Shown here: one piece after another, positions 19,784-56,564 of the stretch
Layout of the letters: the number at the start of each line of letters is the position of its first letter
How positions within the stretch are numbered: position 1 is the stretch's first letter
Assembly: GCA_015039365.1 (NCBI GenBank)
Contig: WION01000043.1
Coordinates: forward strand, 1 to 64,000
Direction: 5' to 3'
Source: Amanita rubescens
Taxonomy: Eukaryota; Basidiomycota; Agaricomycetes; Agaricales; Amanitaceae
DNA length: 64,000 bases
Position numbers and translations under genes: made by a program
The notes under the pieces: model-generated
The model's database searches: none
Seen by the model: the letters and a program-made list of their open reading frames with translations, nothing else
What the model was told of the DNA's origin: nothing

Positions 19784-19872
19784 TGCAAATGTAGACTGTA
19801 GGCGAAAAGACGCGAGTCTGAGGTTGACGTCTTGCGCACCAGGTTAAATACCTCTGTTGCTTACATATGTTC

Positions 19873-20022
19873 AATTGCTATCGTGACTCCCGGACCGTTC
19901 ACCACTCAAATCAGAGAGCTAGGAACGCCTAAATGTCGTTCCGTTTAATTGCTATCGTGACTCCCGGACCGTTCGCGACTCAAATCGGAGAGCTAAGAGC
20001 GCCCAAATGTCATTTCCCGAAC
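19873..20022. repeat. 74-bp tandem duplication upstream of the secreted protein gene
   Basis: AATTGCTATCGTGACTCCCG starts at 19873 and again at 19947. Both units continue through GACCGTTC, CTCAAATC, GAGAGCTA and CAAATGTC / TAAATGTC. It is the only obvious structure in the promoter region of the gene starting at 19783. Confidence 0.8.
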
Positions 20023-24400: not shown

Positions 24401-24988
24401 TTTGTATATCGTTGGGAGGGCTACTGCAGCGTCTGTTGCTTGGCCGGACGATCCTATTGGCGTAAAAGGCGAATGATCCAAGGAACTCCGGGGAACAAAC
24501 TTCAATTCCCACTTTTCCAACAGGACATACCGAGGGGTAGGCTCGATTCGGATTCTTGCACCGGTCCCGGGGGTATTGGATTGAGCAAGGGCAACAAGAA
24601 CGTTCCCGTTTCCGGTACCTGCGCCATTGGTGTTTGACTTGGGCACGGACAATAACACGTGGATGAAGAGTGGCGCAGGATTACTAGTGGTTGATATCGC
24701 CTTGTAAGTTTCCCGAAGCTCGCGGGGGAAGAAGTCAGAGTCGGGAGTTTCGAGGTTGAACCAGCGGTCGATCTTGGGTTTGCGGTCCCGGTCTCGGTCC
24801 CGTTCACGTTCCCTTTCTCTTTCCCGTTCTCTCTCTCTCTCTCGTTCCCGTTCCCGTTCTCCTAATCCCTCCACCAAAGCTCTTGCTTCATAAACAACAT
24901 GAAACAGCTTGGTATATACGTGGAGCGCAATCTGGTCCGACTTTTGCTGTTCGTCAAGCGGAGCTCCCGCGAGGCTAGAGCCAGACAT
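21434..24988 (-). CDS. ATG13: Autophagy protein Atg13
   Basis: Three exons (24226-24988, 22545-24166, 21434-22474) give 1141 residues. Atg13 is the regulatory subunit of the Atg1 kinase complex that starts autophagosome formation. The N-terminal HORMA domain is clear: DQIALHVYTKLFHVVYEAR, KIDRWFNLETPDSDFF, YVLLEKWELKF, GIPLFRSLYSMLRILPVWKL, then FPPIPHPLGSFSLSATY and FQLDDLESLLSSGF. A long Ser/Pro/Gly-rich disordered region follows, as in other Atg13 proteins. The third exon begins SSSFLGKRTEDDDISLFMQD, a conserved fungal Atg13 element. Odd feature: a run of about twelve Glu-Arg pairs and three Asp-Arg pairs sits inside the HORMA domain between VEGLG and RKPKIDRWF. Splice joins are in phase. 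Confidence 0.93.
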
Positions 24989-50191: not shown

Positions 50192-53100
50192 ATGGCAGAT
50201 AGTGCACTTTCATTGAGTAATCCAATATGATATCTTTGGCATTATCATCCTCTGATGGATGGAATCAGGCACAGATGAGACACATGTTAAACTGCTCAGG
50301 GAACAATATCTATGCCCATACTTTCGTATACTTGTCATTGGGAGGGCTATTGCAGGCAAGACAACCATCCTTGAGAAGGTTTGTGGTGTAGCAAAGGGGA
50401 CAAAACCCATCATATATGACAAGGATGGTAAGTCAGTCTGAGCTTGCTTGTGCTTCTTTTGATTGTTGAGTTTGTTGCAGGTAATCAGCTTGAACAGTCT
50501 GAAATACATTTGATGCCATCACTTGAGGTGAGCCAGATCATAATGGTGTATGGATGTATCCATTCACATGCAATGATGACAGAAACGCTTGCATAATATT
50601 GACCATCAAATTACATACCCTGGAAGTAACTTTATCTTCCATGACTCTCAGGGTTTTGAACCTGGTTCAACTGAGGAATTGGAGATTGCTTGGAAGTTCA
50701 TTGAAAGGAAGTATGCAGAAACTGAGCTGAAGAATCAGCTACATGCAATTTGGTATCTTGCTTTATCCCTTTACATTACTGACTGACCAAGCCACCTGTA
50801 GGTACTGTATACCCATGGACAACTCTCATCCTATTCAACCTGCAGAACTTGAATTCTTCAACAAAGGGACAGGCAGAGGTAGGTCCTAATGAATTCATAT
50901 CTCATCTTGTTGGTTTTGGAGGGATTGTTTTCCCTTAACTATTGTTACCTCCTTTCCATTGATCAACTTGTCACAAAATCTACTAGTACTGACTAGTAAA
51001 TATTCATTTTACAGTTCCTTTAGTGACTATATTCACCAAATTTGATACTCAAATAGCCTGTGAATTTGACAAGTTGACTGATGCAAAGGATGAAGATGAG
51101 TGGGAGAGGGCCAGGGAAATTGCTGAAAGCACTTTTCAGACAGTTTATCTCCCTAAAGTTTTGAATGCTAAATATCCTCCTATAGCATATGTGAGATTAG
51201 AAGGTGAGAATAGTGAACATTTCTTCCTTGAAAATAAAATAAAAATGCTGCTTTATAGACATGGATTTGCCAGAGAAGGATTGCCCTGAATTGACTCAGA
51301 AAACTGCTGATGCAATTGATACAAGCATACATCAACTGTTTGTTCTAACGCAGATGAATAATCTGGACTGTTCAGTTAAATCTGCACTTCGGTGAGGGTC
51401 ACATTCAAAATGTCATTTACTAACATTGACATTGTTTAGACATGTTCTGAAACATAAACATTGGACATGGGATGATGTCATCATCATAGTTCTTTCAAAA
51501 TTTCCACATTCCTGGGTATGCATTTTTGTCAAACTACACATCAGCATAGGAAATTCAAATGTCAATAGGTGGACAGGGAGGTAGGTGGCATTCATATGGA
51601 ATGATAAATATCTGCAAAAAAGTTCATTAGGAGGTAAGTAACATTCCAATACCATCAGATGAAAACAAGATTAGTCATGCTTCAGATGGCTAATAAACAA
51701 CTGAGTGAAACACAGGTTAGTTGTCACCATATTCTTGGTGGCAGGATCTAATGTTATTGATATCAGTGGGTAAGTACATAACATTGAGCTAGGATAAATC
51801 TTATATATTGTCCCATGACAACAGTTTGTGAGTAATGCTTCCTTTTGTGATCAGCAGTTTTGTCCCATAATCTACAGGAAGTGAGTAACTCTTTTTTTTT
51901 TGGTGAATTATCCCATGGCACATCATATGATCAATAGCAAGTGAGTTAATCTATCACTCCAAGCAGACTTGTCAATCCAGTCTCTTGTGGACAGGGAGTG
52001 AGCAATACAACATTGCCTCACACCACATCTGACCTGCTTAAAGAAAGTAAGCAACATTGATGTTTGTGCAGTTTATCAGATATAACTTGAGGAACAATAG
52101 AAAGTCAGTGACATACTTTATCTGAAAGAGAGTCCCAGCAAACTTCATTGAATCAACAACAGGAAGTAAGTGACATTTCCTTTCTGTCTGCTGGTAAACT
52201 GTCCCAAAACAACAGACAGTAAATATTTCTCCTTTTCAAAATCTCTTCACAAGCTACAAGCTATTGCAAAACAAATAGGACGTATGTGATACTTGTGTGA
52301 GATATGAATTCATCATATGAAATGCTATTGCAAAAGAGGGTCAGTGGCATTGTATTCTTTTCTCCCAACTCATTATACCAATTCAATTCTAAAAGGAAGT
52401 GAGTGATGCTGGCCACTCTGCTGCAAGACAATTTGGACACATTCTTTTGTTCTACAGACTGTGAGCGATATTGCAAGTTTTGTGAAAAGTAATGAAATCA
52501 CATCTCCAACAGTCTGTGAGTGACATTGCACATTTTGTGAAATGCAGTCTCATCACATCATTTCCTATAACAAACAGCTAGTGAGTGATGTTGCACATTT
52601 TTTTGAAAGGCAGTCTCACCACATCTTTTCCTGTGACCAATAGCCAGTGAGTAGCATTGCACATTTTGTGGAAGGCAGTCTGATCACATCTTTTCCTATT
52701 ACAGCTTGTGAGTAGCAGTGGATATTTTGTGAAAGGTAGTCTCATCACATCTTCTGCTATGACCAACAGCTTGTGAGTGACATAGCACATTTTGTGAAAA
52801 GCAGTCTCACCACATCTTTTCCTATGACCAACAGCAAGTGAGTGACATTGTACACTCTGCAAAAGGCAGTCTCATCACATCTTTCTCTATGACCAACAGC
52901 AAGTAAGTAGCATTGCACATTTTGTGAAAGGCAGTCTCATCACATCTTTTCCTATGACCAACAGCAAGTGAGGTGCATTACACATTTTGTGAAAGGCAAT
53001 CTCATCACATTTTTTCCTATCACCAACAGGAAGTAAGTAGCATTGTACATGTTGTGAAAGGCAATCTCAACAAATCTTCTCCTATGATCAACAGTTTGTG

Positions 53101-56100
53101 AGTGACATTGCACATTTTGTGAGAAGCAGTCTCATCACATATTACAAACAGCCAGTGAGTGAAATTGCACATTTTGTGAAAGGCAGTCTCCTCACATCTT
53201 TTTCTATGACCAACAGCAAGTGAGTGGCATTGCACATTTGAAAGGCAGTCTCATCACATATTTTCCTATCATCAACAGCCAGTGAGTGACATTGCACATT
53301 TTGGAAAGGAGTCTCATCACATCTCTCCTTATGACCAACAGCATGTGAGTGGCATTTCACATTTTGTGAAAGGCAGTCTCATCACATCTTTTCCTATGAC
53401 CAACAGCCAGTGAGTGACTTTGCACATTTTGTGAAGGCAGTTTCATTACATCTTTTCATGTGACCAACAGATTGTCAGTGACATTGCACATTCCATGAAA
53501 GACAGTCTCATCACACCTTTTCCTATGACCAACAGATTGTCAGTGACATTGCACATTTTGTGAAAGGCAGTCTCATTGCATCTTTCCCTATGACCAACAG
53601 TTTGTAAGTGACACATTTGTGAAAGGCAGTCTCATCACATCATCTCTTATGACCAACAGTTTGTGGGTGGCATTGCACATTTTGTGAAAGCCTGCAGTCT
53701 CATCACATGTTTTCCCTTGACCAACAGTTTGTGAGTGGCATTGCATATTTTGTGAAAGGCAGTCTCATCATATGTTTTCCTTTGACCAACAGGTTGTAAG
53801 TGACATTGCACATTTTGTGAAAGGCAGTCTCATCACATCTTTTCCTTACCAACAGCCAGTGAGTGAAATTGCACATTTTGTGAAAGGCAACCTCATCATA
53901 TCTTTCTTATCACCAACAGCCAGTGAGTGAAATTGCACATTTTGTAAAGGCAGTCTGATCACATCTTTCCCTATGACCAACAGCAAGTGAGTGACATTGT
54001 ACATTCTGTGAAAGGTGGTCTCATCACATCTTTTCCTATGACTAACAGCTTGTGAGTGACATTGCACATTTTGTGAAATACAGTCTCATCATATCTTTTC
54101 CAATGACCAACAGCTTGTGAGTAACATTGCACATTTGTGAAAAGTCTCATCACATCTCCTCCCATGACCAACAGCAAGTGAGTGAAATTGCATATTTTGT
54201 GAAAATCAGTCTCATCCTATGACCAACAGCAAGTGAGCAACATTGTGCATTGTTGTGAAACACACCCTTATCACATCTTTCCTATGAACAATAGCGTGTA
54301 AGTGACATTGTACATTGTTGTAAAACAGTCTCATTACATCTTGTCCCATGACCAACAGAAAGTGAGTTACATTGGATATTGTGTGAAAAGCAGTCTTATG
54401 TACTACAATATCAGGAAGTGAGTATTAGCCTCACCTTTTCTATTTCTTTGCCTTACATTATCACCCATAGATTGTAAGATTCCTTTTCAGCTTACCCAAT
54501 CCTGGGGCCTCATGTAATCATTCCTGACTTACATGATATCCTTAATTTTCAGGTAAGTGAAACTTGCTCATGAGACATTAATTTCATATCAGTTTGCATG
54601 CTAGTGTGTAGGTCTCATAGTACATTGAAGGATTTCCTCTTTCTTATTACTAGCATGCACTTTTCTCCATGTTTGGAGGTCAACAAGAGAACTTTGCAGT
54701 CAATGTATGGTTTTCTTTTCTATTGTAGTGCAAAACTGATACTATTGCAATAAGCCTACTGCTTGCCAAATTTTAGTTTGTAAATTATTCCATCTCATTT
54801 GCTCTATTTATGCTGAAACTTTCAAGCAATGATTATCATTGCCAAGTTATCATTTTGGATCAATAAACCATTTCTGCCATCAGTCATGGAAGCTTTTGAT
54901 CAATTCAAGCAAAATGGCTTTATTGAGAAGCTGAAGACTGACATTACACCTCAGACTAATCTTATGCATTTTGGTCATCAAGAACTTGTTGAATTCCTCT
55001 ACAAACAGGTGACTGACATTGATGGTATGTGCTTTATCTACTCATGTGCCACATATGAACAATTTATGGCAAAGCAAACACTTCTTTGCTTTGGGATCGG
55101 GAGACAAAAAATGATGCAAGGGCAACCATGGCAGCATTGCTTGCAGCCCTCCATAAGGTATTGCCTGTACCTCCCCAAGCATCTACCACATCTAATGACC
55201 TAGTCAACACTGCTTGGTGGTTCAATGGTTACCACACTCACCCTTGATCTTATGGGTGAATTGTTGCGCCTACCTGAATATTCTGTCCTTGCATCTGAAC
55301 TGAGCACCTCAAACATTGAGTTGTTGCTTGATTTTATTCTTCATGTATGTATACACTTTTTGTCAGTTTATGCATACTAACTCTTTCTCTTTAGGCACTC
55401 TGCAAGGACAAATTTTCAAGGTTACACATGAGTTGGAGTGCAAATCAAAAGGCTAGGAGGCTTATGTTTGAACTGTTGTCCAAGATTCCCAACATCATAC
55501 CAAAATCTCTTTTTATGACAGCTGATGTCAAAACTGAGATGATGATTGCTATAGGAGGCTATGGGCGTGTTTTCAAGGGTGTATACAAAGGATTACCAGT
55601 AGCACTGAAATTGGTGGACAGGGGTCATACCAATGTTAGTGCTTTTCCAAGTTTTTCTTTTAAACAGCACTGACTTGTTTCATTTGAAGGATTCACTTGG
55701 CAAAGACTTTTGCCGGGAAGCTCTAGCATGGAGATCACTCTCACACCATTTCATTCTTCCTCTCTTAGGGATATTTGAGGAGAGATCACAGCTCTTTCTT
55801 GTATCACCCTTCATGGCTAATGGGACATTGACTGCATGGAGAAAGACATTGCAGGGAACAAACAAGATTCCTGAGATTCACAGACTGGTAACCAGGCTTC
55901 TGCCATGCTTTGATGATGAATTTGCTAATGTTGTCTAGATGCTAGAGGTAGCAGAGGGTGTGAAGTATCTTCACTCGGAAGGAATTGTTCATGGTGACTT
56001 GCATGGAGTAAGGGTTCCAATTTATGCTCCCAAATCAGTCTATCACATTATTCACCAGCGTAATGTCCTCCTCAATTCTGAATTCCATTGCCAAATCACT

Positions 56101-56564
56101 GATTTTGGATCAACTCGACATTTCGAAGCCACCGTTACACGATCTACAACAGCATTTGCTATGAATTTTGTTGCGCCTGAGCTCTTTGGCATGTGTACCA
56201 CGTGTGGTCTATTCGACTGTGACGGATGCCGGGGAGATCAGGCTGCACAGAAAAGACGCAAAACAATGGAAACAGATGTTTACTCTTTTGGTTGCCTTTA
56301 TTATGCTGTATGTATAGATTTCCGCTTGATCAGTGGTGCATTAATCTGGGAGCTGTACAGACATTCTTTGATTCCATCCCTTTTCATGGAAAGACCGAAA
56401 TTCAAATTGTTCGACTCGTCACGAATGGAAAACGCCCGGATCGATTAGAAAGTCCAAGTATGGAAGACGATATATGGCATCTCATTCAGAGATGTTGGGA
56501 GTCCATTCCTTCTAAACGTTCGACGATAAAGGACATCACGACGGCGTTAGCTTCACGTGCTTGA
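50192..56564 (+). CDS. GTPase - microexon array - TKL kinase gene
   Basis: Proposed single gene. Start ATG 50192 (or 50259). GTPase domain: RILVIGRAIAGKTTILEKVC (P-loop), NFIFHDSQGFEPGS (DxxG), VTIFTKFD (TKxD, G4), over exons to about 51300. It continues with HVLKHKHWTWDDVIIIVLS to about 51515, a 12-nt exon VDRE, GAG at 51632-51634, and MANKQLSETQ near 51688-51717. The repeat array follows (51767-54473). After it, coding resumes: HALFSMFGGQQENFAVN (near 54655), LSFWINKPFLPSVMEAFDQF, LMHFGHQELVEFLYKQ, ETKNDARATMAALLAALHK. Kinase: IGGYGRVFKG, PVALKLVD, DFCREALAWRSLSHHFILPL, HSEGIVHGDLHG (HGD for HRD), RNVLLNSEF, ITDFGSTRH, NFVAPELFG, METDVYSFGCLYY, ending PSKRSTIKD. Joins between 54474 and 54830 are unresolved. 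The gene is AT-rich except for its last 450 bp. One gene or two is not proven. Confidence 0.65.
51635..54473 (+). repeat. Tandem intron-like units separated by single codons
   Basis: At least 45 consecutive sites read AG-NNN-GT, where each side is a complete intron shape of about 46-65 nt (typical core GTGAGTGACATTGCACATTT ... CTATGACCAACAG). Three-base spacers start at (residue if translated): 51767 W, 51825 F, 51878 E, 51938 Q, 51995 G, 52044 K, 52101 K, 52163 E, 52216 T, 52279 D, 52337 R, 52396 E, 52458 T, 52513 S, 52578 L, 52644 P, 52705 L, 52770 L, 52835 Q, 52900 Q, 52965 Q, 53030 E, 53095 F, 53152 P, 53217 Q, 53279 P, 53342 H, 53407 P, 53471 I, 53536 I, 53601 F, 53660 F, 53728 F, 53793 V, 53856 P, 53920 P, 53984 Q, 54049 L, 54114 L, 54175 Q, 54230 Q, 54295 R, 54359 K, 54415 E, 54471 I. 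None is a stop. Units from about 52515 to 54230 are very similar; both edges are diverged. Unit length varies between neighbours, but the spacer is always 3 nt. Confidence 0.85.

Follow-up and report, generated by a model that had tools for sequence, protein, structure and literature searches.

Can a whole segment of a protein be encoded with a single codon in each of dozens of consecutive exons? This question is raised by a locus in a stretch of 64,000 nucleotides (nt) from the basidiomycete Amanita rubescens (assembly GCA_015039365.1, contig WION01000043.1, positions 1 to 64,000 of the forward strand), called the window below. Between positions 51767 and 54473 it contains an array of short intron-like units separated by three bases each, with the exons of a GTPase domain upstream and conserved C-terminal exons downstream. 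We conclude, with a probability of about 0.9, that this array is the coding sequence of a hypervariable linker which would be assembled codon by codon by the spliceosome, because 45 spacers, canonical introns, and an open phase-0 frame join the GTPase and the C-terminal parts.

Consecutive three-nucleotide exons in the window

The sequence-only reading had described about 45 units with constant three-base spacers at 51767..54473. The region was analyzed with a chain parser that works without knowledge of frame or stop codons and without a preferred exon length. From the exon with FPHSW to the downstream anchor the parser obtained 52 inner exons, 48 of which were 3 nt long, and exactly 45 three-nt exons follow one another between canonical GT..AG introns, beginning with TGG (51767-51769) and ending with ATT (54471-54473). 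The borders, checked by the parser and a tally of the splice sites, were correct to the base, and the constant spacing was confirmed for 45 units in a row. The donors were GTGAGT in 25 cases, GTAAGT in seven, GTCAGT in four, and other sequences in nine, all of them beginning with GT; the acceptors were CAG (36), TAG (6), and AAG (3), all ending with AG. According to the exon coordinates, the 44 introns of the array are 46 to 65 nt long. Single-codon exons also occur outside the 45, with GAG upstream and TGT downstream (Table 1).

The controls were close to zero. None of 32 exons was 3 nt long in the reverse complement of the same stretch, among 100 dinucleotide shuffles the number of three-nt exons averaged 0.6 and never exceeded 3, and 15 equal slices of the plus strand of the window from position 1 to ~50.5 kb contained 0 or 1 such exon each. 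A large part of the array consists of a 65-bp tandem repeat (29.7 copies with 79% matches in Tandem Repeats Finder), and the 3-nt spacing is also kept in the 5' part outside this repeat. At least 90% identity was found for 5 of the 44 pairs of adjacent introns.

Spacers as probable codons

None of the spacers in the window array is a stop codon. Parsing of 31 sources, which include near-identical copies (L013, a locus cut by a contig end, is outside the 31), gave 1,834 inner exons, and 1,600 of them were exactly 3 nt long, irrespective of frame and stops. The other 234 comprise flanking exons of the ordinary kind, places where the parser missed a GTTGGT-type donor (judged by eye), and real exceptions. 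Two of the 1,600 three-nt exons were stops, both TGA; in the dereplicated set of 22 of the 31 sources, the count was two of 1,173 versus ~75 expected from the position-wise base composition. Genome-wide, one of 1,146 exact CAG-NNN-GTRAGTGNCATTGCACAT sites, some of which may not be single-codon exons, carried a stop, and the sites of the type T-R-R included two TGG.

The six commonest spacers in the 31 sources were CAA, GAA, AAA, CGA, GGA, and TTT, the first five of which differ from TAA or TGA in the first base only. The third base was A or T in 92% of the spacers. After a middle T it was T in 246 cases, G in 27, A in 21, and C in 4, and after a middle G it was A in 239, G in 30, and T in 15. 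This bias tends to avoid TAG as well as GTGT at the donor (NTT 246 versus NTA 21; NGA 239 versus NGT 15), which fits real splicing at these sites. A reading of the spacers in another phase was rejected, since the flanking exons set the phase; by eye, some arrays look rich in third-position GC in +1. A seemingly phase-shifting 17-nt "exon" in the loci L015, L023-L025, and L050 looks like a parser error, as AAG/GTTAGC.. gives K in frame when inspected by eye.

An open frame through the array and its counterparts among public proteins

A gene model built by hand for 50192-55024 contains 60 exons and 59 canonical introns in a single open frame without stops. The GTPase part ending with ..SKFPHSW is followed by VDREEMANKQLSETQ, the array WFEQGKKETDRETSLPLLQQQEFPQPHPIIFFFVPPQLLQQRKEI, a Cys residue, HALFSMFGGQQENFAVN, PTACQILVS.., and IIIAKLSFWINKPF..TDID; the frame passes from the GTPase domain through W-F-E-Q-G-K-K... 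into the conserved C-terminal region.

Intron-free JGI open reading frames (ORFs) on contigs of 1.1-1.4 kb, P0121 and P0001, read uninterrupted through the array region. P0121 (285 amino acids, 1,099-nt contig) aligns to the whole region with a score of 290 when the codons are included versus 210 without the array, and it matches the window model across the exon joins. The C-terminal joins are identical in P0121 and, from MFG on, also in the NCBI protein P0122. For P0001 (386 amino acids, 1,446-nt contig) the scores were 131 with the codons and 70 without the array, and for five further JGI ORFs they were 165/156, 190/156, 176/144, 91/64, and 188/148. The hits of a loose motif search of the best 120 of 195 homologs were five ORFs from JGI and the NCBI protein P0052, the latter at an unrelated place as judged by eye. 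P0001 comprises the constant block described below and the linker, carries SETKWFEKGKKESDREIEYDG.., and ends with IVRFHFRGSPNPTSC.., which matches the translated post-array intron (L019: IVRCHFSSPNPTSC); by its sequence it appears to be a partly spliced transcript with one retained intron. At the level of sequence, inclusion of the single-codon exons in the mRNA and their translation are very probable.

We infer that all codons of the array are constitutively included. Alternatively, the single-codon exons might be included in varying combinations and yield many linker variants differing by single residues, as in an extreme micro-exon gene. All 3-nt exons are symmetrical, any subset of them would stay in frame, and the neighboring intron that P0001 seems to keep would point to imperfect splicing. 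However, the linkers between W and I comprise 52 residues in P0121 and 58 in P0001 (our own count) and reach the length of a complete array, which has 45 in the window, and nearly every spacer avoids stops. Alternative inclusion is therefore regarded as doubtful.

The array architecture in a gene family of A. rubescens

The architecture recurs in a large GTPase-kinase family of the A. rubescens genome. Protein-exon queries gave at least 176 and at least 150 matches, counts in which exons split in the search and near-identical copies from different contigs are also contained; these copies are probably haplotypes. A pattern of the intron unit with at most three mismatches occurred 1,103 + 1,052 times in the genome and its reversed control 0 times; places are given for the first 100 occurrences. 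Neither the unit pattern nor the GTPase had a match in a viral sequence collection. Twenty loci, L020-L039, were taken from protein-exon matches, mostly high-scoring ones and with several near-identical copies among them. They contain 27-86 three-nt exons per locus, and 17 in one locus cut by a contig end, so that at least 17 were present in 20 of 20. Paralog arrays hold a 62-nt intron matching the 65-bp unit of the window, and the short pre-array exons have counterparts in many paralogs. On contigs C3, C97, and C456, some genes of the family seem, by the anchor positions, to span ~13-17 kb between the two anchor exons; these arrays may have far more single-codon exons than that of the window. 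L021 on contig C146 is nearly identical to the window locus but has, downstream of its array, ~2.6 kb that are absent from the window copy.

The first thirteen codons of the array form a constant block, WFEQGKKETDREI, which is common to the paralogs with some changes and has every residue in an exon of its own. The comparison of this block covered 12 of 19 loci, namely those parsed as thirteen of thirteen 3-nt exons. At 6 of the 13 positions the same residue was present in all 12 loci. In 551 of 858 orthologous pairs the introns of the block were unequal in length, the exons being 3 nt in these loci, which had been selected for that. Beyond the block the array varies widely between loci; L038, for instance, has R, D, E, and F there, and L015 has Q, L, and R.

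Gain, loss, and diversification of array units

Related copies show gains and losses of whole units. The differences between L038 and L039 are a single unit of 65 bp, a 7-bp gap, and one substitution in 5,617 intron bases. Between L033 and L034 there are 42 gaps; of the 40 listed, two have the size of a unit (64 and 66 bp), and 14 of 226 codon bases as well as 4.05% of the intron bases are different. In the case of L027 and L035, the intron divergence is 4.3%, with 25 gaps, and 2 of 117 codon bases are changed. By these alignments, arrays lengthen and shorten by whole "intron plus codon" units, which keeps the frame.

Among pairs at least 90% identical, adjacent introns in the young arrays L015 and L023-L025 differ by 0-0.3%, and the codons by 0.08-0.59 per position. 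For all arrays, compared in the 351 of 1,465 pairs with at least 90% identity, adjacent introns differ by 2.9% and the codons by 0.52/0.59/0.48 per position. A comparison with a 62-nt consensus, made in seven arrays for units with 90% identity or more to it, placed the introns of L015 and L023-L025 at 0.0014-0.0024 per base from this one consensus, whereas their spacers are diverse. Near-identical introns combined with diverse codons call for selection on residues together with homogenization of introns, for mutation focused on the junctions, for insertion of introns between codons, or in part for a polishing artifact. Most probably, and with moderate confidence, the near-identical introns recombine or undergo gene conversion with one another while selection favors diverse residues.

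In the mechanism that we propose, the spliceosome would build a variable protein stretch with one amino acid per exon. The near-identical introns would act as recombination partners, with whole units added or removed and the frame left intact; selection for diverse residues would diversify the codons, and recombination or gene conversion would keep the introns alike. Tentatively, such arrays could serve as a codon-by-codon diversity generator, in which the identical introns are recombination handles by which immune-like GTPase-kinases add, delete, or swap single residues in frame and edit a recognition peptide at one-residue resolution.

The pattern of identical introns and diverse codons could stem in part from short-read polishing across near-identical repeats that erased differences in introns but not in codons. 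L050, which lies on a 16-kb contig (C749), provides an argument for this possibility, as 17 of its 48 young spacers are not 3 nt but mostly 2 nt long and its nearly intact introns contain 20 indels in 2,951 nt; this locus is either a decayed allele or an assembly error. The architecture itself is independent of this effect, since the window array, with its few highly similar intron pairs, is still 3-nt-spaced and free of stops. A contribution of polishing to the contrast is considered unlikely.

Another explanation starts from an intact exon into which a transposon-like element, an introner, was inserted repeatedly between codons, so that the codons would be old and the introns young. The closeness of the introns of L015 and L023-L025 to one consensus, next to their diverse spacers, is in line with it, and a side remark of the sequence-only reading had brought up introners. 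Exact 3-nt spacing, however, is not expected of random insertion, and copies differ by unit-sized gains and losses. Dispersal was tested with one pattern, a 31-nt intron start. Its exact copies without a G at the fourth base ahead of the donor, which cannot follow AG-NNN, number 20, and 20 of 20 lie on five contigs with family loci; this test would miss copies elsewhere that have a G at this place. The remark is not supported by this dispersal test, and we consider repeated insertion distinctly unlikely.

Weighing the coding interpretation

Several observations weigh against a coding array. Between paralogs, the codons of the constant block differ by 0.12/0.093/0.075 per base and the introns by 0.136, and the 12 loci show 191 non-synonymous and 19 synonymous pair differences; since this contrast between codons and introns is small, purifying selection on the block was dropped as the main proof. 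L026 and L030 each contain one in-frame TGA among their single-codon exons and are possibly inactive alleles. In L015, L024, and L050 some spacers are 1, 2, or 4 nt long, and these odd lengths, especially in L050, make it less likely that selection alone changed the spacers there, unless they are assembly errors. The JGI ORFs would be complementary DNAs (cDNAs), as concluded from intron-free frames on short contigs. P0001 is from another species or genotype; compared with the genome of the window its best-scoring piece is 77% identical and the listed pieces are 63-89% identical. A further protein search with a composite query at E≤0.001 gave no match, P0121 included. Among the 120 homologs listed of the 195 found, no NCBI-annotated protein carries the array stretch, and annotation thus gives no independent support. 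As a separate observation, L027, a close relative of L026, has no TGA among its single-codon exons.

The proposal of the sequence-only reading that each spacer would be a one-codon exon in phase 0 is nevertheless supported by the scarcity of stops (1/1,146; 2/1,600) and the open frame joining conserved exons, with further support from WFEQGKKETDREI, which is alike or similar in paralogs, and from the intron-free ORFs with a matching linker. Alternatively, the block could be intronic satellite DNA that is spliced out, from first donor to last acceptor, as a single intron of ~2.9 kb, its 3-nt spacing merely following from tandem duplication of the 65-bp unit. This reading is highly improbable and was rejected, for although the tandem repeat exists and omission of whole codons would also preserve the frame, the spacers are almost free of stops, the spacing in the window extends 5' beyond the repeat, the constant-block introns are unequal in most pairs next to 3-nt exons (in loci chosen for the latter), and the linker is present in intron-free ORFs.

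Gene parts and the predicted linker

Table 1. Positions in the window of the array and of the other parts of the gene
Feature	Position	Strand	Basis or remark
GTPase (G-domain) part, 8 ordinary exons, end ..SKFPHSW	50192..51515	+	Hand model, canonical GT-AG introns, open frame
GTPase exons	50192-50216, 50269-50427, 50481-50527, 50583-50752, 50802-50878, 51015-51203, 51259-51391, 51440-51515	+	
Short pre-array exons	51569..51715	+	51569-51580 VDRE; 51631-51633 E (GAG, single codon); 51686-51715 MANKQLSETQ
Array, 45 consecutive 3-nt exons = WFEQGKKETDRETSLPLLQQQEFPQPHPIIFFFVPPQLLQQRKEI, 44 introns of 46-65 nt	51767..54473	+	
Constant array block, WFEQGKKETDRET, 13 exons of 3 nt, paralog counterparts; introns vary between loci	51767..52460	+	
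Array part made of 65-bp tandem repeat (62-nt intron + 3-nt codon)	52506..54396	+	Tandem Repeats Finder
Post-array intron with AG/GT abutment (zero-nt junction) at 54552/54553	54474..54604	+	
Single-codon exon TGT (Cys)	54605..54607	+	Parser and hand model; in P0121 a single residue, Phe
C-terminal exons	54654..55024	+	54654-54704 HALFSMFGGQQENFAVN; 54755-54779 PTACQILV..; 54827-55024 ..IIIAKLSFWINKPF..TDID
Protein kinase exons, GGYGRVFKGVYKG..HGDLHG..DFGSTRHFE.., limits approximate	55540..56564	+	Reading frames

The kinase exons probably belong to the same gene as the array, because P0122 of A. brunnescens, one annotated protein, joins FAVNPTACQVL.. of the C-terminal part to a kinase domain (PF07714, E 5.5e-42). 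The intron after the array measures 79 nt as far as its first acceptor, where CAG directly abuts a second donor, GTAAGT, with zero bases between them. Of 18 loci inspected, near-identical copies among them, 15 had such an abutment, which is possibly a recursive splice site or a double intron. Elsewhere in the window, 24786-24861 and 19869-20011 contain unrelated short tandem repeats (periods of 12-24 bp and a 74-bp unit in 1.9 copies).

The four best homologs of the GTPase part are 75-92% identical to it. In Pfam, MMR_HSR1 was below the cut-off (E 0.033), as were the other matches, and a scan of the window GTPase part and P0122 gave no match to NACHT or WD40. In the AlphaFold model of the relative P0033, the matching stretch (~294-358) is a linker with pLDDT<50 between the G domain and a helical domain; the linker is presumably flexible. 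The best PDB matches of this model are immunity-related GTPases (Irga6/IIGP1, E 6e-6), although the top five TM-scores are only 0.35-0.43, and the likeness of the G domain to these proteins is a lead and not a classification. Because they are its nearest folds, it is a reasonable guess that the family may have a role in recognizing non-self or parasites.

Comparison with known systems

In open-licence PMC papers we found nothing on consecutive single-codon exons or on Amanita microexons, and no published description of a layout with one codon per exon. If confirmed, this would be a gene with a whole protein segment encoded one codon per exon, and the spliceosome would be forced to define three-base exons dozens of times consecutively, which would make the limits of intron definition and the order and fidelity of splicing directly testable. 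The arrays further suggest a new route of diversification for a gene family, with introns that would recombine around single codons without risk to the frame, and they suggest that standard annotation overlooks such coding sequence (0 NCBI-annotated carriers among 120 homologs listed).

A 3-bp exon can be included in Drosophila homothorax (PMC7392893), and a functional microexon is reported for Xlr2 of the filamentous fungus Trichoderma (PMC11121469); these are single exons, whereas the arrays have dozens in a row. Schistosome micro-exon genes (MEGs) have exons stated to be 3-81 bp long in an abstract and 6-81 bp in the text of the same paper, mostly 15 bp, with 10-20 per gene, and introns of 0.1-5 kb, and they encode secreted proteins (PMC10526429, PMC4699917). 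Both systems share runs of tiny exons, mostly multiples of three, in variable genes that automatic annotation handles poorly, here with 1,600 of 1,834 inner exons at 3 nt. The exons of ~15 bp and introns of 0.1-5 kb of the MEGs were not found here; instead, there are 27-86 three-nt exons per locus (17 in the cut one) and introns near 60 nt (46-65 nt in the window), in a GTPase-kinase family.

Introners likewise produce many near-identical introns in one fungal genome, but they spread to unrelated genes (PMC4457414, PMC9860276), whereas the array intron, as far as the one tested pattern shows, is confined to the arrays of one family, and it comes together with a fixed 3-nt exon. In a stwintron an intron splits the splice site of another intron; what is observed here is an AG/GT abutment after the array.

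With respect to evolution, the hnwd genes (NLR, WD40) for non-self recognition in Podospora are similar, having a protein-repeat array with unit-wise gain and loss and concerted evolution (PMC2873952). Like the present genes, they belong to a multigene family that combines a nucleotide-binding domain with an array of repeats, and unit-wise length change and hypervariable codons were also found here. The unit in hnwd is a protein repeat, however, whereas here the homogenized part is the intron, with one coding codon per unit, and the combination of NACHT/NB-ARC with WD40/TPR/ANK was not found by Pfam. In the zinc-finger minisatellite of PRDM9, near-identical exonic units contain a few hypervariable codons that set specificity. 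The arrays resemble it in having hypervariable codons within homogenized repeats and differ from it in that the units are introns, with one codon each.

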